A stretch of 64,000 nucleotides of DNA, from assembly GCA_964030475.1 (NCBI GenBank), contig CAXIPT010000003.1, positions 11,676,667 through 11,740,666 on the forward strand, written 5' to 3'. The first letter of the stretch is position 1, and the number at the start of each line of letters is the position of its first letter. The notes under the pieces were generated by a model. It saw only the letters and a program-made list of their open reading frames with translations. It did not search any database and was not told the DNA's origin. Positions 127 through 42,396 of this stretch are shown here, in pieces. Position numbers and translations under genes: made by a program. This stretch comes from Tethya wilhelma (Eukaryota; Porifera; Demospongiae; Tethyida; Tethyidae).

Positions 127-3100
127 GGTCTAATGACGACACGGCAGAATCTGGACTTACAAAGAATGATCTGAACCATTCCCACCATGATATTGTATGG
201 CCTAAACGTCACAGAAGAAATCTATTGTAATTTGATCCTTGAAAAATTAAAGAATGAAAAAACTCAACTTACTATGAGCAGTAACAGCAACATAACAGTT
301 AAGGTGTAGTCCCCCAACTGTACATGTTACGTGTGAACTCTCCTCATAAAATTCTCCTCCTGGGAGATTAGCAAATTGAAATTCTGGTGTTAAGTCAGGT
401 TTCAACTTGGATGGCGATCTTCCAGCTGCTGCAAAGCATTGCTGGTTAGTGTGAGGGCTAGACAGGTTTGTGATTGTCAGCTGCACCACTCCTTGGTAGT
501 CTCCCTGGGAACAGTACAGCTCATACACGGCACTGGCTGGTTGTGTTTGCTCAGGGAAGATGAATGAAGGGTGTGTTGACTTGTACTTGCGAATCACCAT
601 GGTGATCTCTTGGCCATCTGGAAAAGACCCCTCTGGGACAGTGATCTGTATTCCTTCTTCCCTCCACGTTATCAGTCTCCCTCTTGGACCAACTGCTTCC
701 ACCAACTCACCAGTGAACTCAGCTTTACCTATAAGATGTGCATGTATGTTCTATGATTTGTACATTATGTTATAGGCTAGTAGGTACAACTTACATAAAA
801 GTATTAGCGACTTTGAATTCAAGTTGTAGCTGGTCAGTGTATGGTTGTCTTCCAGTAGCTCTCCATTGCAGTAGAGTTGTTGACAACTGGGTTCAATTTG
901 AGATTCACGTTCAAGATTTTCCTTCAAAGCACGAACAGTTTCATCAAGGAAGATGCTGGCAGATATCATGTTTCCACTGAGATGCTTTACATTAAGTTTA
1001 GTGGGAGTTGTTACTTCAATAATGCAATCTTGATGAATGTAGTAGTAGCCCAGTGTTCTACCATCATCCAAACATTTATTATTGTACACCAATTGTTGTA
1101 GACTCGGTGAAACCATCTTTTCTATTGAAATCTGTATTCGTAGTTTCAGACTGAGGATGGTATCAGTAGGGTTAACTGAAATTAAGAGGGTTTTACCATC
1201 ATTTGTCTTAACCCTGATCTTCATAGAACTTTGAGACTCAAGGAGATGCATCAATTGACCAGATTGAATATTGTAGTCTGAAAGTGTCTGGTTATCATCC
1301 AGCTTCTTGCCATCAAAGACGAGAGAAAAATTGCTCACTGAAATTCTTTCTTCGGTTTCAATTTTAGATTTCACAAATGAAATTTTATCTCGTAAATAAC
1401 ACTCTACTGCTATAGATTGTCCACATGACCTTTGTATTGCTAATTGTATTGCTTCAGGGTCTCTAGGTAATCTGACAACAAGGTGAAGTGTCGATTCTTT
1501 CTGTATATTATTATAGTCACTCAGTGTTCTTCCATTTTCTAGTTGTTGACCAGCAAATATCAGTCGCTGTTGATCTGGTGGGATTTGTTCTTTATCTTGG
1601 ATCTTTGCTTTCACATTTTCAACTGTATCACTTGGTTCAACTTCCAGTGTTATCGTCTTTCCAGAGAGGGTCTTGATGAATATTTGCATTCCTCCACGAA
1701 GTCTGAGTACCAAGTGTAGTGTGGACTCTTTTTGTATGTTGTAGTCACTCAGTGTCCTTCCTTCTTCTAGTCTTTTACCAGCAAATATCAGTCGCTGTTG
1801 CTCTGGTGGGATTCCTTCTTTGTCTTGGACCTTTGTCATCACATTTTCAATTGTGTCACTGGCTTCAACCGTTAGTGTTATTGTCTTTCCAGTGGTGGTC
1901 TTAACAAATATTTGCATACCATAATAATTATAGTTTTGCATTTATCATGACTCCATTTTGAATGTTGCAGTAACTTAATGTATTGCCGCCACACAGACTC
2001 ATGTTCCTGCTAGTAGATACACGATAATAATTTGGTGACGAAAGTTTTTTCTGAGCACGTGCCTTTTCTACTACAGTATGTATTGTGTCACTTGCTGGAA
2101 CATCAAGAGCCACTATCTCTCCACTTTGCTTGATTATATTTGAAGTGAGCTTCACAGATATTTTCAACTTTTGAAGACGTATCACTTGCAATATAGCCCC
2201 CTCTTGAATATCATATTCTCTCAGTCTTTGTTCCTCTTCAAGACGAACACAATTAAAGGTGAGTTGTATCTCACGGGGTCGGATACCTTCTTTCTCTTGT
2301 ATCTTTTCCTTCACAGTTTGGATAGTGTCACTAGGGACTACTTCTACAATTATCCTTCTTTTCCAATGAATTCTGATGAATAGTGGCATTCCTTGTTTCA
2401 GAACTGACTTATGCACAACATAACTATGGCCTGCATGTATTTTATCACTGTCTTCAAGCTTTTTGTGGCTACCAAAACCTTCGTAAAAGGAATGTGACAG
2501 GTCAAGTTGTACCCCTTTCTCTTGTTGGAGTTTTGCTTTAATGTCTCGTACTGTATCATTTCTTTCAATCATCAATGTCAATCTTTCACCAGCATCATCT
2601 TCAATAGATATTTGCTGAATACGAAAGTATAATGTATCATCAGCTTTAACATTCAAGTCACGAAGGATTTCAGAATCACTGTTTTCTAAGTAATAATTAC
2701 CCCAAGAAAATTTTAATCTTGATAGTTGCTGATGTTTAGGTGGTACACCTTCCTTGTCCTGGATCATTTTCTTGACTCTTCCAATTGTCATGGTAGGGGC
2801 AACCTTCAACAGGTGCTTCACTGTCACACCATCACATGATATGTATAGATTTTTCACTCTTTCCAATTCCAATTTCAACACATTTTCTCGTTTGATTTGA
2901 TAGTGTTCAAGTGTTCTAGAATCGTCCAATAGCAGCTCACCTTGGTGCCGAAGTAGAACATAACTTTCTGATGAAATTCCTTCCCGTAGTTGTATCGTTT
3001 CTCTAACGTCTTGAATACAACTATCTCTCCTGGAGTCCAAGGCTATGAGCTTACCAGAAGAATTCCTGACGTAAACCTGTATAAAACCATCATCATTCTT

Positions 3101-3127
3101 CTCTCGTTTGGACAACACGCTACCCAT
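127..3127 (-). CDS. Gene A: poly-ubiquitin-like/ZU5 protein, 3' end outside window, one frame break
   Basis: Six-gene array member, cut by the window edge. The large exon (3127 to 795) encodes about ten ubiquitin-like (Ubl) domains: five divergent, two near-canonical ubiquitins starting MQIFVKT and MQIFIKT, and three divergent ones including the RSCGQSI unit. Unit 1 ends LRLRGG and joins directly to the next Met; unit 2 ends LPRD and has Q at the K48 position. The start MGSVLSK fits N-myristoylation. The reading frame breaks near 1934-1937, where the minus strand has four A; one extra base would restore it. The large exon ends at a GTAAGT donor (794); the ZU5-like exon is 728 to 273 ([19 protein letters not shown]); a small linker exon (201 to 127, WWEWFRSFF) follows. 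The Death exon seen in the paralogues should lie left of the window. Domain calls are solid; function is inferred. Confidence 0.8.
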
Positions 3128-3280
3128 GACTCATGGAATAGTAGATTAAAAATATTATAAAGTAGATAGTATCTCTTGCTGTCAACTTGTGGGTTTAATG
3201 AAATTGTTCTGTTTACTCCTACGCATGAATGCGTGACGTCTAACCTTGCCTTAGAGACTCTAAAATGGACACGTAACTAG

Positions 3281-3298
3281 TGCGCATGCGCATGCGCA
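3281..3298. promoter_or_regulatory. Two overlapping NRF1-type palindromes upstream of gene A
   Basis: TGCGCATGCGCA occurs twice in overlap (3281-3292 and 3287-3298), about 155 bases upstream of the gene A start. This is the NRF1 consensus known from bilaterian promoters. A CRE-like TGACGTC lies near 3235. The rest of 3128-3860 shows no convincing gene. Confidence 0.45.
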
Positions 3299-3859
3299 TG
3301 CATGGCGCGGCGCATATGTATGCACTCACGAACAGTTGTAGGAACGTAAACGGAAAAAGGAAAACCATGAACGCAATCGGAAAAAGGAAAAATCAGGCCG
3401 CATGGGCCGCATAGCAAGGGGGCAGGGCAGGGACACTGAAATGAACGGAGAACTCTGGCGCCTCCTGGTGACGGATCAGTAGCTTTGTATAGCTCTATCT
3501 CTCTTGGCCCTGGCTTAACTTATCATGGGCATGGTGACTTTGGCCTTTGTAGCATAACCACGATGCTTTGAGGCTGAATATAGTGCAGTCATCCCTCAAG
3601 TTTGTAATAGCAACTGCCAACTTCCAGCATTGCCTAGGTTCAACTTCATTTTCATGAATTGCCCCATTATAAACAACTTTGACCATTCATAGCCTGACAA
3701 GTTTCCTTTCAAGCATTAAATGCACATTAAAGAAAATGTGCTACTGGAAAGCCACTGAGCTATCATTGTACATGTAACAATATAATTTCAGTGCATGGAG
3801 TTTCCAAGAAAAGGACCAAATCAGTGTACCCTATTTTTGCTCTAACTAGCTATCATAAT

Positions 3860-5147: not shown

Positions 5148-5191
5148 AAAATCCTACGTACATGCCAGGTTTATTAAGGACACACGAACAT

Positions 5192-8100
5192 CTAAATGAT
5201 TTGGTGTTCTGTCTTTACAAGTTCCCCAAAACCATCATCATTAGTCATACATGTTCTGATCGTTCTTATGACTCTTCTATAATCTCCCAGTCTCTCAAGA
5301 GCTGTGATAATCTTCTCCCATGATGGGTCTCCCTCATTGTCAAGCCAGCATCCAAGCATATTGGAACGTTTGCGATCAATTTGACTCTGAGGGTACTGCT
5401 GATCAATTTCATTTAGTTTAGCCACACTGATTCCAAGTTGAATGCCAAGAGAATACCAGTCTACAGTCCTCAGTACTACCACCAGGTCCTTTAGATCTGG
5501 ACTCTGCCAACCACTCGTGTGGACTAAATTTGACCCTGAGTGAAACAAACAACTACTATAATGTGTTGTTATACTTCTATAACTAAACTAACCTTCATCA
5601 GGACCAGGTGGTGCGGAGGTAGATTGACTTTGCTTACCACTGTTGGTCAAATGTTCCTGTCCTGTATTATATATGCAGCAGTCTAGTAAGTACTATAACT
5701 GTCAAAATCATAATATAAAGCAACAATGGACATACTCTGTGGTGGGAGAGATAAAGTGGAATGTGTATTTGAATCATATTGTCTCGTGAAAAATGATTTG
5801 AATCGTCCCCATACTCCGGACCGTGATGGGGGGTTGTAACCTGTAATAGGCAGTATATAGAATAATAATGTCATGAAGATCTTAAATTTTAGTCTTTGGA
5901 GTCTGGGAGATATTGTCACTTCAGTTCTCTATCAGAATGCCACTTTAGGTTTTAGGCGAGTATATATAGGTCACAAAAGTTACATATAATAGTGCTTTCA
6001 ACTTACTTGCAGTAGAAAGATAACAATTCAGCTGCTGTAAGATGATTGTCCCATGAGTGTCCTGCTGGTCAAATTCTCCTCCAGACAGATGAGTGAAGTG
6101 AAACTCAGGCATCAAGTTTGTCTTCAAAGTAGAGGGTAATCTTGGAGCTTGTATGAAGCATCTCTGACCAGCTTGAGTGCTAGTTAGTGTCAGCTGGACA
6201 CTGCCTTGGTAGTCTCCTTGGTAACAGTACAGCTCATACACAGCACTGGCAGGTTGTGTTTGCTCAGGGAAGATGAATGAAGGGTGTGTTGACTCATACT
6301 TGCGAATCACCATGGTGATTTCTTGGCCATCTGGAACAGACCCCTCTGGGACAGTGATCTGTATTCCTTCTTCCCTCCATGTTATCAGTCTCCCTCTTGG
6401 ACCAACTGCTTCCACCAGCTCACCAGTGAACTCAGATTTACCTAATAGGATGGCATTGTGTTTATTGTTATGACATTGATCATACTAGTTGGTACAACTC
6501 ACATAGCAGTATTAGAGATTGGGAATTCAAGTTGTAGCTGGTCAGTGTATGGCAGTCTTCCAGTAGTTGTCCATTGCAGTAGAGTTGTTGACGACTGGGT
6601 TCAATTTGTGATTCACGTTCAAGTTTTTTTTTCAAAGCAATAACCATTTCATCAGAGTAGATGATGGCTGATATGATGTTTCCACTGAGATACTTTACAT
6701 CAAACATAGTGGGAGTCATCACTTCAATAATACAACCTTGATGAATGTAGTAGTAGCCCAGAGTTCGACCATCATCCAAACATTCGCCTTTATATATCAA
6801 ACGTTGTAGACAAGGTGAGACCATCTTTTTTATTGAAATCTGTATTCGTAATTTCAGACTGAGGATGGTATCAGTTGGGTTGACTGAAATTAAGATGGTT
6901 TTACCATCATTTGTCTTAACCCTGATCTTCATCGAACATTGAGACTCAAGGAGATGCATCAATTGACCAGATTGAATATTGCAGTCTGAGAGTGTCTGGT
7001 GGTCGTCCAGCTTGTTACCATCAAAGACAAAACTACAATTGCTTGTTGAAATTCTTTCTTTTCGTTCAATTTTAGATTTCACAGACAAAATTTTGTCTTT
7101 TAGAGAACACTCCATTTCTATAAATTGTCCACATGATCTTTGTATTGATAATTGTATTAAACCTCCAGGGCCTCCACGTAGTTTGAGAACAAGGTGAAGT
7201 GTCGACTCTTTCTGTATATTGTAGTCACTCAGTGTTAGGCTTCCATCTTCAAGTTCTTTGCCACGAAATATCAGTCGCTGACAATCTGGTGGGATTGCTT
7301 CCTTCTCTTGGATCTTTTCTTTCAAGTTTTCAATAGTGGCATTGTCACCGATTCCTATTGCTATTACCTTTCCAGTGAGGGTCTTAACAAATATTTGCAT
7401 TCCTCCATAAAGTTTGACTATCAAGTGTAGCGTAGCTCTTTTCTGCATGTTGTAGTCACTCAGTGTTGTTCCATCTTCTAGTTGTCTTCCATTAAATATC
7501 AGTCGCTGTAGATCTGGTGGGACTCCTTCCTTATCTTGGATCTTTGTTTTCACACGTTCAATTGTGTCACTTGCTTCAACTTCTAGTGTTATGGTCTTTC
7601 CAGTGATGGTCTTGACAAATATTTTGTTCCTTGTTATCAATTCCATCATGTTTCCATCTTGGACATTGTAAAACACAGTGCTTTGGTGTAACACAGTTCA
7701 TTGCCACTGTGATCCAGAAGTAGCATATCATCATAGTGCCAATTTTTCTTAAGTTCATCTCTGATACTTTCTATTACAGTGAAAATTTGGTCACTGGCTT
7801 TAACTTCTAACGATACTATCTCATCAGAATCAGACACCTTAATGAATATTTTCAATTGTCTGCAGAGTATCACTTCCAATAGAGCCCAATCACGTATATT
7901 GTAATCATTCAGAGTTTTACTCTCTTCTAATATATGATCACATTCTTCTAATAGATGATCACCAATATCAAGACTTCTCTCGTGGAGCTGGATGTCTTCC
8001 TCCAAAGCCACTTGTAGCTTCTCTTTTACAGTTTTAATACTATCACTTGGTAGGACATCCAGAGTTATCATTCTCTTCCAGTGGACTCTGACAAACACCG

Positions 8101-8821
8101 GCATTCCTTGAAATGTCTTGAGCACTAGACAGTAACAATCACTTATGAGTATTTTACTACTGTCATTTATCTTCATTGGCTCGTCAGTATCTTTGTAACT
8201 GAAAAAATGTTGCTGGTCAAATGGAAACCCTTTCTCTTGTTGGAGTTTTGCTTTGACATCTCCAATTGAGTCATTTCTTTGTACTAGCAATGAAAATGTC
8301 TCACCATTGTGAACTTCAATGAAAATTTGTCGAATGTCAAGGTAAAAGGTTTTAGAACTTGTATTATCTCTTAGTAATAAATCTGTAAGAGCCAAGCTGT
8401 CTTCTAAATCACTTTTCGTCTGTAATGATAGTTTCTGGTGTTCAGGTAGTACACTTTCCCTGTCTTGAATCATTGTCTTGATGCTTTCAATAGTTGTGGT
8501 GGAAGTCACCCAAAACTGCATTGTCTGATCGGGTGAATCATTTTTTATGACATTTATCACCAACACCTCCAGCAACAAAACACTTTCTCTTTGGATTTGA
8601 TAGTGTTCAAGTGTACCAGAGTCTTCTAACTGCTCTCCACCTTGGTGCTGCCAAAGGACCTGATAATCAGGTGAGATTCCATTGTGTAGTTCCATCTTCT
8701 CCTTAATATCTCGGACACAAAAATTGCTCTTGCAATCTAACGCAAATAGATCACCACTGGAGGGATCTCTAACATAAATCTGTACAAGATTTTCTTCTTG
8801 TTTAGACAACGACTTTCCCAT
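5192..8821 (-). CDS. Gene B: poly-ubiquitin-like/ZU5/Death-domain protein, one frame break
   Basis: Complete array member. The large exon (8821 to 6503) has about ten Ubl domains: five divergent, two ubiquitin-like (starting [11 protein letters not shown] and [11 protein letters not shown]) and three divergent. The start MGKSLSK fits N-myristoylation. The frame breaks at a 4-base T run on the minus strand (plus 7670-7673); alignment to gene E implies one lost T. Then come the ZU5-like exon (6441 to 6007), linker exon (5840 to 5736, [10 protein letters not shown]), a short Ser/Pro exon (about 5663 to 5592) and the Death exon (about 5537 to 5192) with [10 protein letters not shown] and the [15 protein letters not shown] helix pattern. 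All junctions have GT-AG. The first ubiquitin unit has R at the K48 position; the second keeps K48, ends LKLRGG and is followed by Pro. Role as a Death-domain adaptor is inferred. Confidence 0.85.
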
Positions 8822-10096: not shown

Positions 10097-13000
10097 CTAA
10101 TGCATGTAGTTACTTTTGATTGTTTGCATCACTCTTCCATAATCTCCCAATCTCTCAAGAGCTGTGATAATCTTCTCCCATGTGGGATGTTCCTCAGTGT
10201 CAAGCCAGTATCCAAGCATATTGGAACGCTTGCGGTCAATTTGACTCTGAAGATACTGCTGATCAATTTCATTTAGTTTAGCCACACTGAATCCAAGTTG
10301 AATGCCAAGAGAGTACCAGTCGACAGTCCTCAGTACTATCACCAGGTCCTTTAGATCAGGACTTTGGCTACTTGTGCCTAGATTTGACCCTAAATGAAAT
10401 AAACAACAATGACAATAACAAAAAAAAAAGCAACAACCAACAAAAAAAAAAAGCCCCATAATATGTAATTGTGTTGTCATGCATACTTGCAATCATTATA
10501 ACTAAACCAACCTTCTTCAGGACCAGGTGGTGTGGCAGACTGACTCTGCTGACTGCTATTGGTCACATGATCCTGACCTGTATTGGATTATGCATGCAGC
10601 ACAGTCAAGTCAGTCTGTCATATCATGATATTGTGCAACAATAGACATACTTGGTGGTGGGAGAGCTTGGGTAGGCTGTGTATTTGAATCATATTGTCCT
10701 GTGAAGAATGATTTGAGTCGTCCCCAAACTCCAGATGGTGGGGGATTATAACCTGTTAGGAAGTAGAAAGCAATATCAGATCAACTCTAATGAAATTAAT
10801 TTTTATGAATATACCAAATATTTTGGCACAGAATTTAACTTTTGTGGCTTTTTAATATCGCATCAAACATTATCAATGAAAATTGCTCCAATGAAAAAGT
10901 GTGATATTGTACTGAATTACATGCACACCTACACATGATCAGGAGCTTATAATGAGGGTTGTAGGCACAATGCAAGAACCAATTTCACAAAAATCTACAG
11001 TAATAATTTTTTTACTTGACAACGGTGTGGCAGCATCTGTGCTTGAATCAGATCGTGCTGGAAAGAATGATTCAAAGAGTCTCCATGGAGCTTGATGGTT
11101 AATACCTGTCATGTGTGCAGTGGTTTGTAGTAAACTAATAATGGATAACCTTTCAACTGTATTGCATAATAATAATAATTAGTCCCAGTACTCTCTTGAC
11201 ATTGTATCCACTACTCACTTGCCACAGCAAGATAGCAGCTAGGCTGTATTCTGATTGTTCCACGAGAACTATGCTGATCGAACTGTCCTCCTGGGAGATG
11301 AGTAAAGCAGAATTCTGGTGTGAAGTCAGGTTTCAACTTATAGCGTGATCGCGGAGCTTGTACAAAGCATCTCTGACCAGTTAGAGGACTAGTGTTAGTG
11401 ATTGACAGCTGGACACTGCCTTGGTAGTCTCCTTGAAAACAATAGAGCTCATACACAGCACTAATAGGTTGGGTGTGATCAGAAAAGGTGAATGAAGGGT
11501 GTGTTGACTCGTACTTGCGAATTACCATGGTAAAACCTTGGCCATCTGGAACAGACCCCTCTGGGACAGTGATCTGTATTCCTTCTTCCCTCCATGTTAT
11601 CAGTCTCCCTCTCGTACCAACTATTTCCACCAGCTCACGAGTGAACTCAGATTTACCTGTAATAACAATAAAATTTTTTATTGAAGCATGACATTAGTCT
11701 TTGGTGTCAGGGAGATATTGTCATTTCAGTTCTCTATCAGAGTGCCACTTTAGGTTTTAGGCGAGTATATAGGTCACGAAAGTTACATATAATGTGCTTT
11801 CAACTTACTTGCAATAGAAAGATAACAGTTCAGCTGCTGTAAGATGATTGTCCCATGAGTGTTCTGCTGGTCAAATTCTCCTCCAGGCAGACTAGTGAAG
11901 TAAAACTCGGGCATCAAGTTTGTTTTCAAAGTAGAAGGTGATCGTGGAGCTTGTATGAAGCATCTCTGACCAGTTAGAGGACTAGTAGTGGTGAGTGACA
12001 TCTGGACACTGCCTTGGTAGTCTCCCTGGGAACAGTACAGCTCATACACGGCACTGGCTGGTTGTACTTGCTCAGGGAAGATGAATGAAGGGTGTGTTGA
12101 CTTGTACTTGCGAATCACCATGGTGATCTCTTGGCCATCTGGAACAGACCCCTCTGGGACAGTGATCTGTATTCCTTCTTCCCTCCATGTTATCAGTCTC
12201 CCTCTTGGACCAACTGCTTCCACCAGCTCACCAGTGAACTCAGATTTACCTAGAATGGCATTGTGTGTTTCATTGTTAATACATTGATCATACTAGCTAT
12301 ATAGTTGGTACAGCTCACATAGCAGTATCAGAGATGGGGAATTCAAGTTGTAGCTGGTCAGTGTACGATGGTCTTCCAGTAGCTCTCCATTGCAGTAGAG
12401 TTGTTGACAACTGGGTTCAATTTGGGATTCACATTCAAGTTCGGTCTTCAAAGCAAAAATTGTTTCATCAAGGAAAATGGTGGTAGATATCACATTTCCA
12501 CCAAGGGGCTTTATATCAAGCTTAGTGGGAGTAGTCACTTTAATAACGAAGCCTTCATGGATGGAGTAGAATGTGAGTGTTCGAGTATCACGCAAGAATT
12601 CGTGGTTGTACATCAAACATTGCTGACCTGGTGTGACCATATCTTGTATTGTAATCTGTATCCTCACTTTCAGACTGAGAATTGTGTCAGTTGGATTGAC
12701 AGGTATTGGTGTCATTTTGCCATCACTGGTCTTGACAGTGATCTCCATTGAACATTGTGACTCCAGTAGATGTAAGAGAGTACCTGATTGTATGTTGTAG
12801 ACTGATAGCATTTGACTATCATCCAATTTCTTTCCATTGAAGACAAGGATGTGATCCTCAAAGGATATTCTTTCTTGCTTCTTGAGCTTGCATTTGAGAG
12901 TTGAAATTGTGTCCTGTGAAGAACAAGTTACTTCTATTGATTGTCCACATGATCTTTCAATGTAAAGTTGAATGTTAGGCCCATGTAGTCTGACATGAAG

Positions 13001-14449
13001 GTGAAGTACTGATCCAATACAAATGTTGTAGTGACTGAGTGTTCTTTCATCTTTTAGTTCTTGACCAGCAAACAAAAGGAGTTGCTGATTTGGTGGGATT
13101 CCTTCTTTATCTTGGATATACCTTTTTATGCGGTGAACACAATCATCAAATACAAATACATGTACTGCTAATATCTTTCCATTAAGAGTCTTTATATATA
13201 TTATTCCATCTGGTAATCCACCTCCACGAAGTCTTCGTACCAAGTGCATCATACTTTCCGTTTCAATAAGGTAGTCACTCAGTGTTCTTCCATCTTCTAG
13301 TTGTTTACCAGCAAACAGGAGACGCTGTTGATCTGGTGGGAATCCCACCTTATTACTGATAATTTCTTTCACATTTTCAATTGTGTCACTAGTTTCAACG
13401 TCAAGTGTTACTACCTTTCCAGTGAGGGTTTTGGCAAATATCTGCATTCCGCTCTGCAATCTAGGCACATATTCTAACACAGACTCTGCCTCGATATTGT
13501 AGTCACAAAGCATCTTTTCATCTTCTAGCTGTTTGCCATCAAATAATAAGAGTCGTTCTAGATCTTGTGGGAACCCTTTTCTATCGCATATCCTTGCTTT
13601 CACAGTTTCAACTGTTTCACGAGGCTTGACATATAGGGCTGTTGTATTTCCAGCAAGGGTCTTGACAAGTATCCTTATTCCTTCAACCCTGAGTACCAAG
13701 TACAGTGGAATGCAGTCACTCAGTGTCTTTTCATCTTCAAGTTGCTGGTCAGCCAACATGAGATCTTGGTGGTCTGGTGGGATTCCCTCTTTCATTTGGA
13801 TTCTCTCCTTCAAACATTTGATTGTGCTAGTGGGCTCAACTTCTAGCATCAACATCTCATCATTGAATTTTATTGTGTCTGACAATAGCTTTAGGAAAAC
13901 TTGCACTCTTCTTCGAGTGCTGAGGTCACAGTATAAGACACCACCAGTTTCATTAATACTTGCATCATTAAGGGTTGAATCATCTTTTAACTCGGATCCA
14001 AAGTTAGATGAGTGTTTTTTCTGGTATAATTTTGATGGGATACCTTCCTTGTCTTGGATTCTTTCCTTAATGCTTCCAATTGTGGTGGTGGGAACAACTT
14101 TCAACTTTTGTACTGTTGTGGCACGCCAGATCGGATCATCGGTTGAACAATCACCGTATAAAATACTATCTATGGTACAATTCTTGATGTTGATGACCCA
14201 CTCCTCTAACTGCAATACACTTTCGTTTTGTACTTGGTAGTGTTGAAGTGTGAGGGAATCGTCTAAGAGAAGCATGCCAGCGTATCTAAGGGTTTGGCCA
14301 TCTGACGAGACTCCCTCTCGTAGTTGGATCTTTTCCTTGACATCACGGATGGAGTCATCACTCTTACAGATTAAAGCCGACAGTCTACCAGAAGGGTTCC
14401 TGACGTAAATCTGGATACAAAATCGCTTCTTTGACAACATACCACCCAT
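10097..14449 (-). CDS. Gene C: poly-ubiquitin-like protein with two ZU5 domains and a Death domain
   Basis: The large exon (14449 to 12319) is open throughout and encodes nine Ubl domains after MGGMLSK, an N-myristoylation-type start. Only one unit is close to ubiquitin ([11 protein letters not shown], ending RRLRGG). Downstream exons by GT-AG: ZU5 copy 1 (12249 to 11819), ZU5 copy 2 (11656 to 11219), linker 1 (11105 to 11016), linker 2 (10752 to 10651), short exon (10577 to 10512), Death (about 10390 to 10097). ZU5 copy 1, linker 2 and Death resemble gene B; ZU5 copy 2 and linker 1 resemble gene D. The Ubl exon resembles gene F, including the [15 protein letters not shown] unit. It therefore looks like a mosaic. 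All predicted exons are open, so it may be functional. Exon joins are inferred from splice signals and paralogues, not transcripts. Confidence 0.85.
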
Positions 14450-14619: not shown

Positions 14620-17259
14620 TCAGTTAGTAAAACCAATGTAGTCTTTTTCAACGGTGCTGATCACATTGCCATGACCTCCCAGTCTCCTCAGAGCTGTAAC
14701 AATCTTCTCCCATGAAGGGTCTTCCTCGTTGCACAGCCAGTAATCAAACATGTCAGAACGTTTCCGGCCAATGTGTCTCATAGAGTGCTTGTCATCAATC
14801 TCATCCAGTACACCTTTGGGAACATCTAGCTGAATTCCAAGATCAAACCAGTCTACAGTCCGCAAGACAACCACCAAGTCTCTTAGTACTGGGACACCTG
14901 ATGATCCTGAGGATAAGTAAAAGGTCGGTCAGTCATCAAAATCATGACAGTATTATATCAAAGTACACACACCTTGAGGAGGATGTGATAGAGTTGGGGG
15001 TGGGCTAGGATTGGACTGACTACTGAGTACGGTAGTTGATGTGAGTTGTCCTATTACAATAGTAAGTATAATCAGTCAACAATATAATCATGATACAAGA
15101 AAATTATATTACTTGATGATGGAGTACTATGCATGGATGATGGCGTGGCAGCAGCTGGGCTTGATTTAGATCTAGTTGGGAAGAATGACTTGAAAAGTCC
15201 CCATACTCCACCTGACCTTGTAGCTTGAGAGTTGAAACCTGTGATGTGTGTAGCAACATTGTAGTAGTTATGGTTCACCTTTCAACTCTATTGCCAGTGT
15301 CGATTCTACAAGGTTGTACTCACTTTCTGCTACAGCAAGATAGCAGCTGGGTTGCAATATGATTGTTTCACGAGAACTATGCTGATCGAACTGTCCTCCT
15401 GGGAGATGAGTAAAGCAGAATTCTGGTGTAAAGTCAGGTTTCAACGTATAATGTGATCGTGGAGCTTGAATGAAGCATCTCTGACCACTTAGAGGACTAG
15501 TGGCAGTGATTGATAGCTGGACACTGCCTTGGTAGTCTCCCTGTAAACAATACAGCTCATATACAGCACTAACAGGTTGGGTGTGGTCAGAAAAGGTGAA
15601 TGAAGGGTGTGTTGACTCGTACTTGCGAATCACCATGGTGATCTCTTGGCCATCTGGGACAGACCCCTCTGGGACAGTGATTTGTATTCCTTCTTCCCTC
15701 CATGTTATCAGTCTCCCTCTTGGACCAACTGCTTCCACCAGCTCACCAGTGAACTCAGTTTTACCTGCATGTAAGAGTGTTTTAACTATAATTTTATGTA
15801 TATTGTATAACTTACAGAGCAATATTAGAGATTGGGAATTCAAGTTGTAGCTGGTCAGTGTACGGTGGTCTTTCAGTAACTCTCCATTGCAATAGAGTTG
15901 TTGACGACTGGGTTCAATTCGTGACTCACACCTAATTTGTCTTTTAAAAGTCCGAACAATTTCATTGAGATACACAAAGGTAGATATCACGTTTCCACCA
16001 AAACACTTGACTTGAAGTTTTATTGCAGTAGTTAAATCGACAACACAATCATTACCAATTGAGTAGTAGCTCAGAGTTCGGCTATCGTACAAACTTTCAT
16101 GCTCATATGCTAATTGCTGCAAACTGGGCGAGACAATATTTTCTAGTGTAATTTGTATACGTAGTTTCACACTAAGTATAGTGTCAGTGGGATTGACAGC
16201 TATTGGAGTGGTTTTACCATCTTTTGTCTTAACCATGATCTGCATAGAACATTGAGACTCGAGGAGATGCATCATTTGACCTGATTGAATATTGCAGTTT
16301 GAGAGTGTCTGGCTATCATTCAGTTTTTTGCCATCAAAGACAAGAGAACAATTGCTCATTGAAATTCTTTCTTCTTGTTCAATTTTGGATTTTAGGATTG
16401 AAATTGGATCTAGTCGTGAACATATTAAATGAATTGACTGTCCACATGATCTTTGTACAACGATTATGACTTCAGAGTCTCCACATAGTCTGAGACCAAG
16501 ATGAAGAGTGGATTCTTTGGGGATATTGTAGTCACTCAGTGTTCTTCCATCTTCCAGTTGTTTGCCAGCAAATATTAGTTGCTGTTGATATGGTGGGATG
16601 TTTTCTTTATCCTGAATCTTCGCTTTCACATTTTTGATTGTGTCACTGGCTTCAACTTCTAGTGTTATTGTCTTTCCAGTGAGGGTCTTGACAAATATTT
16701 GCATTCCTCCACGAAGTCTAGGTACCAAGTGTACTGTAGACTCCTTACGGATGCAGTAACAACCAAGAATTCGTTCATTTACTAGTTGTTTGCCAGCAAA
16801 TATCAGTCGCTGTTGATCTGGTGGGATTCCTTCCATATATTGGATTTTTTCTTTCACATCTTCAATTGTGTCACTGGCTTCAACTTCTAGTGTTAGTGTC
16901 TTTCCAGTGAGGGTCTTGACAAATATTTGATATCCTCCACGAAGTCTGAGCACCAAGTGTATTGTAGACTCATTTTGGATATTGTAGTCACTCAGTGTTC
17001 TTCCATCTTCTAGTTGTTTGCCAGCAAATATCAGTCGCTGTTGATCTGGTGAGATTCCTTCCTTTTTTCGGATCTTTGCTTTAACATTTTCAATTGTACC
17101 TCTGGAATTAGCTTTTAATGTTATTGTCTTTCCAGTGAGGGTCTTGACAAATATTTGGATTTCATCTTTACCTAGTATCTCATCGAAGATCATCGAGGTG
17201 AAATTCCCTTGCTGAGATTCGGAGTCGTACCATCTCTTTGACATCACGGATACAGACAT
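14620..17259 (-). CDS. Gene D: short poly-ubiquitin/ZU5/Death-domain protein
   Basis: Shortest member: the five N-terminal divergent Ubl domains are missing. After [10 protein letters not shown] it has three near-canonical ubiquitin units ([41 protein letters not shown]), then three divergent Ubl domains. Units 1 and 2 end LRLRGG and PRLRGG; unit 3 ends LRLCGD. K48 and K63 are kept in all three. The Ubl exon is 17259 to 15816. A 51-base intron (15815 to 15765, GTAAGT..CAG) is a multiple of three without stops, so the ORF reads through it into the ZU5-like exon (15764 to about 15325). Linker (about 15238 to 15115), Ser/Pro (about 15052 to 14973) and Death exons (about 14906 to 14620, [12 protein letters not shown]) follow. 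The Death domain is the most diverged of the set. The MG myristoylation start is absent. Confidence 0.85.
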
Positions 17260-17726
17260 AACTCTTTACAGTTTGCCTGAGGGACCATTAAACTATATAT
17301 ATTCAGGTGCGCGAGTGTAAATCCTCTGAATTCCTGTCTTCTTGCTGAGTGTACTAGTAGAGCAGTATTGAAAGTGCAATCCCAGAGGTTTCAACCCCTT
17401 CCCTGGTGTAGTACTTCTTCTTCTTTGCCTCCACTAAAAGGAGAGTTCTAGTGCACAAAAATGATTGTATAGTAAAACTGTAAAAGCACTAGCTGTAAAT
17501 TACACAATTTATTATAAATTATGTTCATTTTAAATTTTTTGGGGATTTCCTGGCCCTAGGCCCTCGAGGCCTCGTCCTGGCGTAGTACACGTGACTTGTA
17601 GTGGGATATCATTGCGCATGCGCATTATATCTTTCGTATTGCAGCACAAATTATGGGCAAGTGGAAAGACAAAACATACGAAAACCTAATTACATTGATA
17701 GTAGTCTATTAAGCTAGACAATTTAG
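17260..17726. promoter_or_regulatory. Gene D 5' flank with an NRF1-type palindrome
   Basis: TGCGCATGCGCA lies at 17613-17624, about 355 bases upstream of gene D and just beyond the 3' end of gene E. A GC-rich patch (17541-17600) carries CCTGGCCCTAGGCC and GAGGCCTCGTCCTGG, partly like the foldback in the gene F intron. No coding potential was seen. Confidence 0.35.
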
Positions 17727-20700
17727 CTAGAATGATGCATGCATGTAGTCACTTTTGATGGTTCTTATGACTCTTCCATAATCTCCCAGTCTCTTCAGAG
17801 CTCTGATAATCTTCTCCCAGGATGGGTCTTCACCATTCTCAAGCCAGTATCCTAGCATACTAGAACGTTTGCGATCAATTTGACTCTGAGGGTACTGATC
17901 ATCAATCTTATTCAGCTTAGCCAGGTTAATACCAAGTTGGATTCCCAGAGCATGCCAGTCAACACTCCTCAGGACTATCACCAAGTTCTTAATTGTAGGA
18001 GCACGGGGTCCTAGAGATATGCACACACATTAATTTTATAAATAAGCATGTCTGCACATTTTAGTGACAGTGTAAATTATCATACCTTGAGCAGTTTTAT
18101 GTTCATTCAAGATTTGTAGAGGACATTTATGGTATTCTTGACTAGTACACCCAGTATTTGTGGCTGAATCAACTAGCTCTAAAAGAGAATGAAAAAAATT
18201 AATGTCAATCATGATCATTATCTCCAACAATGCTTATTGCATAGCTTCCCTATTTCTATATAAATGGAAGTTTTTGTATTCACCCATAATTATATAAAAT
18301 TGCACCTCAAAAATTAGGTATAATGGTATACGCTAATTATAAGTAAATTGACGTACTTGGTGATACAATTGCTGGTGGTGCACTAGGTAACAAAGCAGTT
18401 GCTTCACTTGGTTCTCTTTCTCCTGGCAGTAACTCAGTTGAATGAGGAATGGATAAACAAGCTAAAGAAAACAATACAGTGCAAAAATCAAATTATGGTT
18501 TATACCTACAGGAACATGTGGTTTAGTTACCTGTAGTAACCACGGAAAGATAACAGCTGGGTGGTTGTAGGTTGATGGTTCCATGAGAACTTTGGTCATC
18601 AAACTCACCCCCAGGCAGAAGAGTGAAGTGGAACTCAGGCATTAGGTTTGTCTTCAAAGTAGAGGGTGATCGTGATGCTTGTACAAAACATCTCTGACCA
18701 GTTTGAGTGTTAGTGACTGTCAGCTGCACCACACCTTGGTAGTCTCCCTGGGAACGGTACAGCTCATACACGGCACTGGCAACTTGTGTTTGCTCAGGGA
18801 AAATGAATGAAGGGTGTATTGACTCATACTTTCGAATCACCATGGTGATCTCTTGGCTATCTGGAACAGACTCCTCTGGGACAATGATCTGTATTCCTTC
18901 TTCCCTCCATGTTATCAGTCTCCCTCTTGGACCAACTACTTCCACCAGCTCACCAGTGAACTCAGATTTACCTACATTTTTGTATACAACTTTTCTTTCT
19001 TATCAATGGAACAAACTGTTAAACTTACATAGCAGTACCAGAGATTGCGAATTCAAGTTGTAGCTGGTCAGTGTACGGTGGTCTTCCAGTAGCTCTCCAC
19101 TGCAGTAAAGTTGTTGATGACTGGACTCGATGTGAGATTCACGTTTAAGTTTTTTCTTCAAAATAATAACAGTCTCATCAGGGTAGATGTTGGCAGATAT
19201 CACTTTTCCACTGAGGGACTTTACATCAAGTTTAGTGGGAGTGGTCACTTCAATGATGCAACCTTGACAAATGTAGTAGTAGTCCAGAGTTCGATCATCG
19301 TCTAAACATTCGTCTTTGTATATCAAACGTTGTTGACTTGGTGTGACCATCTTTTCTAGTGTAATCTGTATACGTAGTTTCAGACTGAGGATGGTGTCAG
19401 TAGGATTGACAGCTATTGAGGTGGTTTTATCATCTTTCGTCTTAACCCTTATCTTCATCGAACACTGAGATTCAAGGAGATGCATCAATTGACCAGATTG
19501 AATATTGCAGTCTGAGAGTGTCTGGTCATCATCCAGCTTTTTTCCATCAAAGACAAGAGTACAATTTGTCACTGAAATTCTTTCTTTTTGTTTAATTTGG
19601 GACTTGATGGATGAAATTTTGTCTTGCGGAGAACATTTTATTTCTATAGATTGTCCACATGATCTTTGTATTGATAATAGTATTGCTTCAGGGTCTCCAC
19701 GTAGTTTGAGGACAAGTTGAAGTGTCGACTCTTTCTGTATGTTATAGTCACTGAGTGTTAGTCCATCTTCTAGTTGTTGACCATCAAATATCAGTCGCTG
19801 TTGATCTGGTGGGATTCCTTCCTTGTCTTCGATCTTTGTCTTACATTTTTCAATTGTGTCACTAGCTTCAACATCTAGTGTTATTGTCTTTCCAGTGGGA
19901 GTCTTGACATATATTTGCATTCCTCCTCTTAGTCTGAGGACCAAGTGAAATGTGGACTCCTTTTCAACATTGTAGTCACTCAGTGTTAGTCCATCTTTTA
20001 GTTGTTGGCCACAATATATCAGTCTCTGTTGATCTGGTGCGATATATTCAGTATCTTGGATCTTTTCTTTTACATTTTCAATTGTGTCACTGGCTTCAAC
20101 TTCTAGTGTTATTGTCTTTCCAGTGAGGGTCTTGACAAATATTTGCATTCCTCCACGTAGTCTGAGGACCAAGTAAAGTGTGGACTCCTTTTGAATATTG
20201 TAGGAAGTCAGTGTTCGTCCATCTTCTAGTTGTTGGCCAGCAAATATCAGTCGCTGTTGATCTGGTGGAATTTCTTCCATATCTTGAATCTTTGCCTTCA
20301 CCTTTTCAATTGTATCCCTGGCTTCAACAAAAAGAGTTAATTTTTTTTTGGTAAGGGTCTCGACAAATATTTTATACAAACCATATAGTAATTCTATATC
20401 CAATATACCTCCATTTTGAATGTTCCAGTAACTCAGTGTATCACTACCACACAGTCTTGTGTTTCTGCTTGTATGTACCTGATAACATGTTATAGATGAG
20501 ATTTTTTCCTCAACGAATGCCTTTTGTACTACACTATCTACTGTGTCACTTGCATCAACATCAAGAGCCACTATCTGTCCATTGCATTCGGTCCTCCTAA
20601 TTGAACTAAGCTTCACGTATATTTTCAATGATTGAAGAAGTATCATTCGTAATGTAGCCCACTCTTGTATATCATAATCACTCAGCGTTTGATTTATGTC

Positions 20701-21603
20701 AAGTCGTTGACCATTAAAGGTAAGTTGTATCTCATGGGATGAGATACTTTCTTTCTCTTTTATTTTCTCCTTTACAGTTAGAATTGAGTCACTAGCGGTG
20801 ACTTCTAAAATTATTCTTTTTTCCCAATTAATCCTGATGAACAGTGGCATTCCTTGTTTCAGAACTGACTTGTGCACAATATAACTATGGCCTGCATGTA
20901 TTTCATCACTGTCCTCCAGCTTTTTATATGTACGAACATAAAAAAAACATGACTGGTCACAATGAAACCCTTTCTCTTGGAGTTTCACTTTGATATCTCT
21001 TACTCTCTCATTTCCTTCAATCATCAGTGTCAATCGTTTACCAGCATCATCTTCAACTGAGATTTGTTGAATATGAAGGTATAATGTATCACCAGCTTTA
21101 ATACGCAATTCATGAAGGGTTGTACTGTCTTGCAAGTTATTCCCACGCAAATATAGTTGCTGGAGTTTAGGTGGTAAACCTTCCTTGATTTGAATAATTT
21201 TCTTGATGCTTCCAATTGTCATTGTAGGGGCAACCTCCAATCGCTGCTTTGCACAAGCACTGCACTGACTCAACCCATCATGGTCACCTAATGCCCTCTC
21301 GATGTAAATCATGGGCCACTCCTCCAATTGTAACACACTTTCTCTTATGATTTGATGGTGTTCAAGTGTGCTAGAATCATCCGAGAGCAGCTCACCTCGG
21401 TGCCAAAGTATAAAATGATGTTCTGGTGAGATTCTTTCCCGTACTTGTATCTTTACTTTAAGGTCTTGAAAACAATTGTTTTTCTTACAGCCTAAGGCTA
21501 TCAGCTTACCAGAAGAATTCCTGATATAAATCTGTATAAAACTATCATCATGGTGCTCTGGTTTGGACAACACAGTGATACTACTCATACTCATACTACT
21601 CAT
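17727..21603 (-). CDS. Gene E: 11-unit poly-ubiquitin-like/ZU5/Death-domain protein
   Basis: Intact counterpart of genes A and B. The Ubl exon (21603 to 19029) is open and has five divergent Ubl domains, three ubiquitin-like units and three divergent ones. Units 1 and 2 end LVLRLRGG directly before MQIF and MQIY; unit 3 ends LKLRGD. All three have Q at the K48 position (GQQLEDG, GQQLKDG, GQQLEDG) but keep K63 (QKEST or EKEST). ZU5-like exon 18971 to 18531 contains [12 protein letters not shown]. Two linker exons (about 18462-18358 and 18181-18085) and a Death exon (about 18012 to 17727, [12 protein letters not shown]) follow. Linker and Death sequences are close to gene F, while the Ubl exon follows A and B. 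The start is MSSMSMSS...VLSKPE: the MG start is lost although LSK is kept. Confidence 0.88.
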
Positions 21604-21915
21604 AATTATCTATGTCCTAACTGAGTTGACTCCAGAGTTGACTCCATGATCTACAGTAGCACGTGCTTTTAGTGCGCGCTTATGCGCATGCGCATGCATA
21701 TTTAGTGAACAACAATGGTCATTCCAATGCATATTTGGACATCCAGGCTTAGAAATTCAAACATTTAAGAACAGTTATTGTTTTTACAAACTTTTGAACT
21801 ATTTAGTGGACACGCTAAACATACAAACATGGGACATTAGACTATTGTAGTCTCTAATATCTGTGATACAATAGAAACAGCAAGTGCTATTGGGATTGAC
21901 AAGTTCCTAAAACCA
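21604..21915. promoter_or_regulatory. Gene E 5' flank with an NRF1-type palindrome
   Basis: TGCGCATGCGCA at 21683-21694, 80 bases upstream of the gene E start, preceded by GTGCGCGC. No coding potential was seen between here and the end of gene F. Confidence 0.45.
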
Positions 21916-24900
21916 CTATGAGCAGAGCATGTAGTCACTTTTGATGGTTCGGATGACTCTTCCATAATCTCCCAGTCTCTTCAGAGCTCTGATAATCTTC
22001 TCCCATGATGGGTCTTCACCATTGTCAAGCCAGTATCCAAGCATACTAGAACGCTTACGATCAATTTGACTCTGAGGGTACTGATCATCAATCTCATTCA
22101 GCTTAGCCAAGCTAATACCAAGTTGGATTCCCAGAGCATGCCAGTCAACACTCCTAAGGACTATCACCAAGTTCCTGATTGTAGGAGCACGGGGTCCTAG
22201 AGATATGCACATACATTGAATAAAGTTATAGCATTTTAGGGACAGTATAAAACACACCTTGAGCAGTCTTTTGTTCATCATTCAGGATTTGTAGAGAAGC
22301 TTTATGGTACTCTTGACTAGTAGGCCCGGTGTTTGAAGCTGAATCAGCCAGCTCTGAAAAAACAAAACAAAACAGAACACTGTAACATAAATCATTTATC
22401 TAATAATGCCTATTGCACAGCTACGTAAATTTTTGTGAAAATTTCCCAATAAAATGATGCGTATTATCAGCAGGGAGGTTACGTGATGCATGGACTGAAT
22501 TGACATACTTGGTGATATAATTGGTGGTGCACTAAGTAACAAAGCACTTGATTCTCTTTCTTCTGGCAGGACCACAGTCGGCAGTAACTCAGTTGAATGA
22601 GAAACATATAAACATGCTAAAGAAAAAAATACAGTGGAATGCACAAATCAAATTATGGTTCACCAACAAGAGTCAGCGCTTTACTTACATGTAGTAACCA
22701 CAGAAATATAACAGCTGGGTGGTTGTACGTTGACAGTTCTTCGAGAACTTTGGTCATCAAACTCTCCTCCTGGAAGGCAAGTGAAGTGAAACTCAGGCAT
22801 CAGGTTTGTCTTCAAAGTAGATGGTGATCGTGGAGCTTGTACAAAGCATCTCTGACCACTTTGAGTGTTAGTGACTGTCAGTTGCACCACACCTTGGTAG
22901 TCTCCCTGGGAACAGTACAACTCATACACAGCACTGGCAGGTTGTGTTTGCTCGGGGAAGATGAATGAAGGGTGTGTTGACTCGTACTTGCGAATCACCA
23001 TGGTGATCTCTTGGCCATCTGGAACAGACCCCTCTGGGACAGTGATCTGTATTCCTTCTTCCCTCCATGTTATCAGTCTCCCTCTTGGACCAACTGCTTC
23101 CACTAGCTCATCAGTGAACTCAGATTTACCTAATGCACATTACATAATTGTGTTTTTGATGGGGGCTAGACTAGTATGGTATAAAGAGCTTAGCCTCGTA
23201 CCCAGGCCACTCCCTCTTTTTAGTGTTTCAGTGTGAAACACTAAAAAGAGTGAGTGGCCTGGGTATGAGTGAAACACTAAAAAGAGGGAGTGGCCTGGGT
23301 ACGAGGCTATAAATAGCTTACATTGTACAATCAGAGATTGAGACTTAACGTTGTAGCTGGTCAGTGTATGGTGGTCTTCCAGTAGCTCTCCATTGTAGTA
23401 GAGTTGTTGACGACTGGGTTCAATTTGATATTCATTTTGGACTATTTCCTTCAACACATTGATGGTTTCACCTGGGTAGACACTGCAAGATATCATGTTT
23501 CCATTGAAGGACTTCAAATAAACTCTTATGGGAGTAATTACTTCAATAACACAGCCCTGATAGATGGAGTAGAAACTAAGTGTTCGACTATCATGTAAGG
23601 ATTCACAGTTGTACATCAAATGTTGCTGACTTGGAGTGGCCATATCTTGTACTGTAATCTGTATCCGCACTTTTAGACTAAGCACAGTGTCACTTGGATT
23701 GACAGGTATTGTGACTGTATTACCATCGCTAGTTTTGACAGTGATCTCCATTGAACATTGTGACTCCAGTAGATGTAAGAGAGTACCTGATTGTATGTTG
23801 TAGACTGATAGCATTCGACTATCATCTAATTTCTTTCCATTGAAGACAAGGATGTGATCCTCAATGGATATTCTTTCTTGCTTCTTGAGCTTGGACTTAA
23901 GACTTGAAATTGTGTTCTGTGAAGAACAAGTTACTTTTATCGATTGTCCACATGATCTTTCAATGTAAAGTTGTATGTTTGGCCCATGTAGTCTGACAAG
24001 AAGGTGAAGTACTGATTCATTACCAATGTTGTAGTCATTGAGCGTTCTTTTATCTTCTAGTTCTTGACCAGAAAACACAAGTAGTTGTTGATTCCACATG
24101 ATTCCTTCTTTTTTTTGTATCCGTTCCTTTATGTAGTAAATACGGCAACCATCGTCATCTACATATACTGTTAATGTCTTTCCATTAAGGGTCTTTATAT
24201 ACAAACATATTCCACCTCCTCCTCCAGGCAACCTTTTTACCAAGTGTAACACATCCTCTGACAAAATAGAATAGTCATTCAGTGTCATTCCATCTTTTAG
24301 TAGTTTGCCGGCAATTATTAGTCGTTGATAATCTGATGGGATTCTTTCCTTTTCCTGAATCTTTTGTTTCACTTTTTCAATTGTATCACTGGCTTCAACT
24401 TCTAGTGTTAGTTTTTTTCCAGTGAGGGTCTTGACATATATCTCCATTCCATGTATCTCCAATCTAGGTACATACTCCAACACAGACTCTGACTGGATAT
24501 TGTAGTCAGATAGCATCTTTCCATCTTCTAGCTGTGTACCAGCAAATAGTAAGAGCCGCTTTAGATCTTGTGGGAACCCTTTTCTATCTCGTAGTCTTGC
24601 TTTCAAAATTACAGCTGTTTCACTAGGCTTAACATAGACTGTTGTCATTTTTCTAGCAAGGGTCTTAACAAATATCCGCATTCCTTCAACTCTGAGTACC
24701 AAGTGCATTGTATAATAATCTTTCTGAGGATTGTACTCATTCACCGTCTTCTTATTTTCAAGTTGTTGGTGATGACCAGCAAACATGAGTTGTTGGTGGT
24801 CCAATGGAATTCCCTCTTTCAGTAGGATTTTCTCTTTCAAATATTTGATAGTGCTAGTTGGTTTAGCTTCTACCATTAACATTTCATCATCGAATTTGAT

Positions 24901-25845
24901 TGTGCCTGACGATAGCTTTATAAAAACCTGAATACATCTATTTTCTACCCACAAAACAGCCCACTCATGAATATTGCAATTACTCAATGTTTGACTTTCA
25001 TCAAGTCGATGATCACGATGGGCAAGTGTTATCTTATGCGGTGGGATCCCTTCAGTTCTTTGTAACTTCTCTTTCACAGTTTGAATTGTGTCATTGGGCA
25101 TGACTTCCAGAGATATTGTGATTCTAGACCAAAAAAATTTGACAAATACTAACATTCCTTGAAATGTTTTGTGTACTAGATATATATAGGAACGAAATAT
25201 ATATGGATATAAATCGGAATTGTCGCACAACTTATAACGATCATCAGTAAAGTAATATTGTCTATCATATTGATATCCTTTCTCTCCTTGAATTTTCAAT
25301 TTGATATCTCGTATTGTATCACCTAGTTCAAATAGTACAGCAAAGCTTTCACCATTGTGAGCTCTAACAAGTATTCTTCGAGTGTTAAGATACAAGACAC
25401 CACCTGTTTTATTAATACTTAAGTCATGGAGGGTTTGAGTGTCTTTCAACTCATTCGGTGATTTATAATTGGAAGGAAGTAGTTGCTGGAAATTTGAAGG
25501 CATACCTTCCTTTATGCTTCCAATGGTCGTGGTGGCAGCAACTTCCAATTTTCGTACTGTTGTGTCATGATAACATTTTTTTATGTTGATGACCCACTCC
25601 TCTAACTGCAATATACTTTCATTTTGTACTTGGTAGTGTTGAAGTGTGAGGGAATCGTCTAAGAGGAGCATGCCAGCGTATCGAAGGGTTTGGCCATCTG
25701 ACGAGACTCCCTCTCGTATTTGGATCTTCTCTTTGACGTCACGGATGGAGTCATCACTCTTACAGTCTAAGGCTATCAGTCTACCAGAAGGATTCCTGAC
25801 GTAAATTTGTAGATAATATCGGGGTTTGGACAACACAACTCCCAT
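21916..25845 (-). CDS. Gene F: 11-unit poly-ubiquitin-like/ZU5/Death-domain protein
   Basis: First gene of the array. The frame opens at 25869, but the in-frame Met at 25845 gives MGVVLSK, matching the myristoylation-type starts of A, B and C, so I chose it. The Ubl exon (25845 to 23322) encodes eleven Ubl domains; the most ubiquitin-like ([15 protein letters not shown]) ends KRLPGG, so none is canonical. The ORF runs on into the intron (23321 to 23130), where it translates a foldback repeat; this tail is almost certainly not protein. The ZU5-like exon is 23129 to 22689 ([12 protein letters not shown]), with linkers about 22620-22510 and 22350-22260 and Death about 22200 to 21916 ([12 protein letters not shown]). 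The Ubl exon pairs with gene C; the ZU5, linker and Death exons pair with gene E. Confidence 0.88.
23191..23309. repeat. Foldback repeat in the gene F intron
   Basis: Two 40-base arms (23191-23230 and 23270-23309) are perfect reverse complements, starting TAGCCTCGTACCCAGGCCAC. The centre holds a further partial copy of the arm (GAAACACTAAAAAGAGTGAG). A related single arm occurs at about 62449-62470. It looks like a small nonautonomous element inserted in the intron. Confidence 0.85.
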
Positions 25846-42362: not shown

Positions 42363-42396
42363 TTTTCATAACACAATATTATTATCATATATAATA

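Follow-up and report, generated by a model that had tools for sequence, protein, structure and literature searches.

A 64,000-nucleotide stretch of the Tethya wilhelma genome (the window; C3:11676667-11740666, from a genome totalling 124.6 Mb) carries genes in which an array of ubiquitin and ubiquitin-like domains (Ubls) is joined through a ZU5 domain and a linker to a Death domain. Six such genes, G1 to G6, lie head-to-tail on the minus strand and span from position 25845 to slightly past base 1. There is very little doubt that this coding architecture is genuine. A preliminary description of the window had proposed a tandem array of six ubiquitin-ZU5-Death genes, and this is borne out by the gene models and by the recurrence of the architecture elsewhere in the genome. 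The family suggests a cell-death or immune adaptor in which the ubiquitin signal is encoded by the gene rather than added by enzymes. Our best reading, which we consider to have an even chance of being right, is an adaptor that is tethered to the membrane, carries a Death domain and contains a linear ubiquitin scaffold as part of its own coding sequence.

Each gene consists of one large ubiquitin exon with 6-11 ubiquitin/Ubl domains, a ZU5 exon, linker exons and a Death exon that holds the stop codon. There are two linker exons and one ZU5 per gene, except in G4, which has three linker exons and two ZU5 domains. The stop-to-ATG distances between consecutive genes are 312, 467, 170, 1275 and 2067 bases. 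The models of G1-G4 are open throughout, with spliced products of 1149, 1165, 791 and 1186 residues, respectively. A frameshift interrupts the ubiquitin exon of both G5 and G6, whose ZU5-Death portions are open. The exons, with their positions in the window and strand, are:

G1 exon 1, 23322..25845 (-): start MGVVLSK, 10 ubiquitin/Ubl profile matches and an unscored unit-sized stretch
G1 exon 2, 22689..23129 (-): ZU5, included in the fold comparison
G1 exon 3, 22509..22616 (-): linker
G1 exon 4, 22258..22353 (-): linker
G1 exon 5, 21916..22196 (-): Death domain and stop, included in the fold comparison
G2 exon 1, 19029..21603 (-): 11 ubiquitin/Ubl domains, no MG start
G2 exon 2, 18531..18971 (-): ZU5
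G2 exon 3, 18357..18461 (-): linker
G2 exon 4, 18086..18178 (-): linker
G2 exon 5, 17727..18010 (-): Death domain
G3 exon 1, 15816..17259 (-): 6 ubiquitin/Ubl domains
G3 exon 2, 15324..15764 (-): ZU5
G3 exon 3, 15113..15238 (-): linker with the motif VWGLFKSFF
G3 exon 4, 14973..15050 (-): linker
G3 exon 5, 14620..14906 (-): Death domain
G4 exon 1, 12319..14449 (-): start MGGMLSK, 9 ubiquitin/Ubl domains
G4 exon 2, 11809..12249 (-): ZU5 a
G4 exon 3, 11219..11656 (-): ZU5 b, the second, a phase 1-1 exon
G4 exon 4, 11016..11105 (-): linker, WRLFESFF
G4 exon 5, 10651..10752 (-): linker, VWGRLKSFF
G4 exon 6, 10512..10577 (-): linker
G4 exon 7, 10097..10389 (-): Death domain
G5 ubiquitin exon, 6503..8821 (-): start MGKSLSK, 10 ubiquitin/Ubl matches over two frames, frameshift at about 7649-7697
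G5 ZU5 exon, 6007..6441 (-)
G5 linker, 5736..5840 (-): VWGRFKSFF
G5 second linker, 5593..5661 (-)
G5 Death exon, 5192..5535 (-)
G6 ubiquitin exon, 795..3124 (-): start MGSVLSK, 10 ubiquitin/Ubl matches over two frames, frameshift at about 1928-1941
G6 ZU5 exon, 273..728 (-)
G6 linker, 127..201 (-): WWEWFRSFF
G6 second linker, 1..38 (-): runs past the window edge
G6 Death exon, L013:9267-9545 (-): outside the window

The splice phase, the missing start codons and the recurrence in the genome argue against separate ubiquitin and ZU5-Death genes, a reading that we reject. All 26 introns of the six gene models, with splice sites chosen by eye and the reading frame in view, are GT-AG and in phase 1. 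At the ubiquitin-to-ZU5 junction, the donor reads GTRAG and the acceptor AG, at the identical codon place in all six genes. In six of the seven ZU5 exons, an in-frame stop lies 4-15 codons upstream with no intervening Met and, thus, these exons depend on an upstream exon and are not separate gene starts. In all seven exons, the ZU5 sequence has its first Met at residue 43. The ZU5 of G3, as well as that of locus L017, shares an open frame with the ubiquitin array. As the introns all share phase 1, the ZU5 exon is symmetric and its duplication, as in the G4 pair, leaves the frame intact. For the eight domains tested (NG86, window paralogs), the ratio of mean nonsynonymous to mean synonymous divergence (dN/dS) is 0.22-0.47, a range that points to purifying selection at the protein level. 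For the Death domain, this ratio is based on ten of 15 pairs, with the five pairs containing G6 left out because of a frame slip in its row, and pairs with no usable dS were dropped for Ub1 (three of ten) and the first conserved Ubl (seven of 15).

The breaks in G5 and G6 fall at nearly the same place of the array, in different directions and beside short homopolymers. We reject a programmed frameshift because the shifts run in different directions at slightly different places. More likely, they are recent indels, polymorphism or assembly error; their near-coincidence could reflect assembly error or a shared fragility.

Genome-wide, ZU5 exons of this type are present at 16 places (E < 1e-16), i.e. 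seven in the window, four in a second cluster on the same contig (C3) about 85-115 kb away, two on C7 and one each on C1, C2 and C5. A ubiquitin array is joined to such a ZU5 in 14 genes on C1, C2, C3 and C7: G1-G6, genes a, c, d and e of the second cluster (cluster 2; L009-L012), L016, L017, L029 and L019. The Death domain is clear in nine of these (G1-G6, c, L029 and L019) and weak in three, with Pfam scores of 19.7 bits in L016 and 14.4 bits in e and, in d, 12.8 bits with our own profile and no Pfam match; for d, e, L016 and L019, the Pfam scan covered individual open reading frames (ORFs) rather than complete gene models. In a and L017, a search with our own profile and by eye found no Death domain. 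Gene d has a second ZU5 that is clear in Pfam (33.5 bits). Gene b (L010, C3) has an array followed by Death with no ZU5 match between them, and in the C5 copy (L030) ZU5 and Death are present with no ubiquitin match upstream, where letters are masked. In the stretches examined, the ubiquitin arrays of L021 and L023-L026 lack a ZU5 of this type. L018:3269-5212 (+), on C7, starts with MGASLSK and carries a ubiquitin array that ends before the last Ubl, ZU5 and Death; it is a possible decoy or truncated copy. A scan with the ZU5 profile gave 170 pattern stretches in prokaryotic contigs and 21 in viral contigs, none of which was confirmed; as the collections are prokaryotic and viral, this says little about relatives.

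The order of the arrays, their joints, the linker motif and the MG starts, set out below, go beyond the preliminary description. The arrays follow a common order. In G1, G2 and G4-G6 they open with 3-6 diverged Ubls, and G3 starts directly with near-canonical units. The window contains 12 near-canonical units, one to three per gene and mid-array, with 52-67 of 76 positions identical to ubiquitin. In these units, I44 is kept in 11 (Leu in the other one), L8, I44 and V70 are all kept in seven, and each unit keeps four to seven of the seven lysines. G1 and G4 have a single near-canonical unit each, followed by a unit at 39/76. In all six genes, ZU5 is preceded by three Ubls of fixed type, the first with the patch residues S-V-L, the second variable and the third with L/F-Y-C; these three are also recognisable in c, d, e and L017. 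The arrays are not polyubiquitin in the sense of identical ubiquitin units with Gly-Gly joints throughout: identity to ubiquitin runs from fewer than 20 to 70 positions per unit, Gly-Gly is missing from most joints, and the number of profile matches per array varies from 6 (G3) to 19 (gene d). The ready-made ubiquitin chain of the preliminary description, therefore, survives in part, with one to three near-canonical units per gene, while the rest of each array consists of diverged Ubls, and several of the central joints look open to cleavage.

In each window gene, at least one central unit ends in Gly-Gly. With a slash marking the joint, these include RLRGG/M in G2 (twice), G3 and G6, RLRGG/Y in G3 and KLYGG/M in G5. 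By contrast, the last central joint is damaged or Pro-blocked (G76 lost or Pro next) in all six genes. Across 13 arrays, counting units of at least 38/76 identity, Gly-Gly followed by a residue other than Pro is found at none of the 13 last central joints and at 16 of the 39 earlier ones (Fisher 0.005). We regard this apparent split between cleavable central and blocked last joints as a lead rather than proof. No Gly-Gly joint occurs in L018, the truncated paralog lacking ZU5 and Death.

The ZU5 domain has the expected beta fold, which matches ankyrin, UNC5B and ZO-1, together with a profile match. Similarly, the Death domain has a profile match and the six-helix Death fold; it is of the FADD/ankyrin type, with fold matches to ankyrin and FADD, and the closest natural Death domains by sequence profile are those of FADD/RIPK1. 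A domain search of the six spliced ZU5-Death parts, suggested in the preliminary description, reported only ZU5 and Death at E ≤ 10; UPA gave no match between the two domains and FIIND none in the six parts. FIIND/PIDD-type autoproteolysis cuts between F and S at the end of ZU5; in the alignment, EFHFT-like residues are present at ZU5 112-116. TRADD-N had no Pfam match in the pieces scanned, a search that divergent TRADD-N domains might escape. The ZU5 profile gave only chance-level matches to PDB sequences, and NCBIfam returned 0 families. In G1, the linker between ZU5 and Death is 68 residues. A linker motif, W-x-x-[FILVM]-x-S-[FLIM]-F, written after inspection of family members, is present at eight separate places in 671,884 six-frame residues, seven of them in family linkers (G3, G4 twice, G5, G6, c and L016) and one elsewhere; G1 and G2 carry a different linker.

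At the N-terminus, the first Met after an in-frame stop gives MGVVLSK in G1, MGGMLSK in G4, MGKSLSK in G5 and MGSVLSK in G6. Further MG starts are MGASISS and MGASTSS in cluster 2 and MGASLSK in L017 and L018. The start is readable in ten of the 14 ubiquitin-ZU5 genes, and an MGxxxS/T start is present in seven of the 14 and in L018. In a sample of 143 ORFs of at least 150 residues from the window and the loci, 128 of which have a usable Met, MG...[ST] stands at the first Met in eight, all of them ubiquitin-array exons of the family. Seven of these eight fit a stricter PS00008-like pattern, which is fitted at none of 225 internal Mets of the family. MG...[ST] is the N-myristoylation consensus. 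A myristoylated Gly with a nearby basic residue places an N-terminus at the membrane, and these proteins are probably membrane-anchored by the predicted N-myristoylation.

In the adaptor model, the order of elements is a myristoyl start, 3-6 diverged Ubls (none in G3), 1-3 near-canonical ubiquitins, three conserved Ubls, ZU5, linker and Death. The myristoylated start would tether the protein at the membrane, and the FADD/ankyrin-type Death domain would oligomerise. Because of their head-to-tail order and the kept I44, the near-canonical ubiquitins resemble a linear chain, and the central units may, with roughly equal chances for and against, mimic an M1-type (linear) chain. Such a block would recruit readers, e.g. 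NEMO-like UBAN proteins, to an assembly of Death domains at the membrane, and a built-in signal of this kind would need no ligase. The genome contains a NEMO/optineurin-type CC2-LZ (UBAN) exon above cut-off and DED matches, 31 of 52 above cut-off and one with an internal stop; thus, readers and Death-fold partners plausibly exist. We are less sure of a deubiquitinase switch, which we consider rather unlikely. Here, a deubiquitinase would cut the central Gly-Gly joints and free the membrane anchor, and the uncleavable last joint would leave one ubiquitin on the Ubl3-ZU5-Death fragment. Pro after ubiquitin stabilises fusions against deubiquitinases, and the blocked last joint resembles the G76/Pro changes that make ubiquitin fusions deubiquitinase-stable. 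In an extended version, which we consider unlikely, the protein would act as a tripwire and sense deubiquitinase activity through its own backbone: the myristoylated Ubl arm would hold the Death adaptor at the membrane via a cleavable joint, a second joint would be deubiquitinase-proof, and a host or microbial deubiquitinase would free or rewire the Death half with one ubiquitin staying on it. Binding, cutting and signalling by these proteins are all inferred.

Several observations weigh against the adaptor model. The hydrophobic patch of ubiquitin is lost in most array units, and the arrays of G5, G6 and L016 are broken across two frames. Among the 14 genes, two are without a detected Death domain and three have a weak one only. 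G2, G3 and cluster-2 gene c lack an MG start, MGKSLSK of G5 fits MG...[ST] but fails the stricter PS00008-like pattern, and an unrelated ORF in L031 (MGVVSGQ) fits the latter. G1 (KRLPGG/GGG) and G4 (RRLRGG/GLP) have no canonical RLRGG/M joint. With a cut-off of 45/76, Gly-Gly is present at two of 11 last joints (G1 and G4) and at 12 of 19 earlier ones (Fisher 0.026), and the identity thresholds of both joint counts were chosen post hoc among paralogs that are not independent. As for partners, the CC2-LZ control matched below cut-off in two bacteria, the HOIP-UBA match was below threshold, and the search for OTULIN gave no match, its control being equally silent.

One alternative is that the array is no more than a repeat scaffold: the ubiquitin fold would have been amplified for binding or spacing, in the manner of Ig or LRR repeats and with no function in the ubiquitin system, and repeat variation would let paralogs bind different ligands, e.g. 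microbial ones. The loss of patch and Gly-Gly in most units, the range of 6 to 19 matches per array and the arrays of the genome without this ZU5 all fit such a scaffold. However, at least one unit in every window gene has stayed near-canonical while its neighbours diverge, and the retention of I44 in 11 of 12 such units and of four to seven lysines in each argues against it; we judge it unlikely. Alternatively, the product could be a polyprotein from which host deubiquitinases, cutting the central Gly-Gly joints during translation, release variant ubiquitins and leave two separate fragments, one with the myristoylated Ubls and the other with Ubl3-ZU5-Death under a ubiquitin cap. RLRGG/MQI-type joints in G2 (two), G3, G6 and the cluster-2 and C7 genes are in line with such processing. 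However, G1, G4 and the C1 gene lack a GG/M joint, and the Death half would gain nothing from an MG start, a feature that nevertheless recurs across the family; we find a polyprotein quite unlikely.

The blocked last joint can also be read as part of a ubiquitin-fusion degron or guard, in which the uncleavable last ubiquitin keeps the Death fragment short-lived until an infection that disturbs the proteasome, p97 or ubiquitin enzymes lets the fragment accumulate and signal. The block at the last central joint of each of the six window genes is in line with this, and ubiquitin-G76V fusions are described in PMC8605321 as ubiquitin-fusion-degradation substrates. Still, the ubiquitin is internal until exposed by a cut, and of the six last units those of G3 and G5 alone have Lys at K48; we consider a degron improbable. 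Finally, the genes could be artefacts of modelling or decaying pseudogenes, with adjacent ubiquitin and ZU5-Death genes falsely merged. The models were built from genomic sequence only, G5 and G6 have frameshifts, and one paralog, L018, is truncated. Set against this are the phase-1 junction conserved in six genes, the six of seven ZU5 exons without a start codon, the dN/dS values, the recurrence on other contigs and the open models of G1-G4, and we regard an artefact as extremely improbable.

ZU5 followed by a C-terminal Death domain is also the arrangement in UNC5, ankyrins and PIDD (ZU5-UPA-DD). In contrast to these, the window genes have no UPA match and an N-terminal ubiquitin array, and the predicted myristoylation replaces the membrane span, ankyrin repeats or LRRs. 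PIDD carries ZU5-ZU5, as does G4. The G4 pair is also like that of ankyrin-B, as judged from a structure entry title. The FADD and RIPK1 adaptors, closest in Death-domain profile, differ in their other domains: a DED in FADD and a kinase in RIPK1, against the ubiquitin array and ZU5 in the window genes. Polyubiquitin genes similarly have head-to-tail ubiquitin units and some GG/M joints; however, in the window genes units are diverged by place and order, most joints lack Gly-Gly, and there are additional C-terminal domains. ISG15 and OASL are tandem Ubls in innate immunity, with two Ubls only and neither ZU5 nor Death.

The preliminary description knew of no described family that fuses these domains. 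For (Ub)n-ZU5-Death itself this agrees with the literature searched (supplements not covered), in which we found no description, but polyubiquitin-TRADD-N fusions are published (PMC8195603). That paper (eLife 2021) reports that TRADD-N proteins have expanded in marine invertebrates, with 357 of them in Amphimedon, and describes a DEDD2-like TRADD-N clade fused to polyubiquitin, FIIND and UPA-ZU5. Polyubiquitin is joined to a death-adaptor domain in invertebrates in both cases, with ZU5-Death here and TRADD-N there; UPA-ZU5 fusions are named separately in that paper, which does not contain the word myristoyl. PMC12909245 mentions NACHT-ZU5 genes and has UBQ in the legend of a figure that shows NLR architectures of sponges; (Ub)n-ZU5-Death is described in the portions seen of neither paper, and the word ZU5 is absent from those of PMC7159879. 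The claim of the preliminary description is nearly but not wholly right: the family is a variation on published polyubiquitin-death-adaptor fusions that itself is apparently undescribed.

In mammals, a ligase builds the linear ubiquitin of Death-domain complexes, and this ubiquitin controls inflammation and cell death. If the adaptor model is correct, a protein carrying the chain in its own sequence would represent an independent route to a linear-ubiquitin signal in an early animal lineage. The family would then offer a natural test of the importance of individual ubiquitin faces and joints, and the split between cleavable and blocked joints yields direct biochemical predictions.

Beyond these genes, L014 and L015 (C10) hold further near-canonical ubiquitin arrays. 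Near that of L014 lie a different Death domain and, as read by eye, coiled-coil and SH3-like exons; perhaps this is an independent ubiquitin-Death association. L025 (C2) is an ORF of 1845 residues with 22 diverged ubiquitin-like matches and no ZU5 of this type. Death domains of the family's type are also present in L032 and L033 (C3:11900001-11920000), and after each comes another Death-like exon, similar by eye to the one in cluster-2 gene e; in L033, again by eye, the Death domains come after a receptor-like region with membrane helices. In the window, intron 1 of G1 (23130-23321) contains an inverted repeat (CCAGGCCACTC...), seen by eye and perhaps a small transposon. About 15 kb from G1 and on the same strand, an open frame of 620 residues (40503-42365, -) encodes a TRAF-like protein (RING, zf-TRAF, MATH), placing a ubiquitin-ligase adaptor near the cluster. 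An ORF of 1154 residues (45393-48857, -) combines bacterial-type alpha-L-rhamnosidase and SUEL lectin domains, possibly a horizontally acquired gene fused to a lectin.

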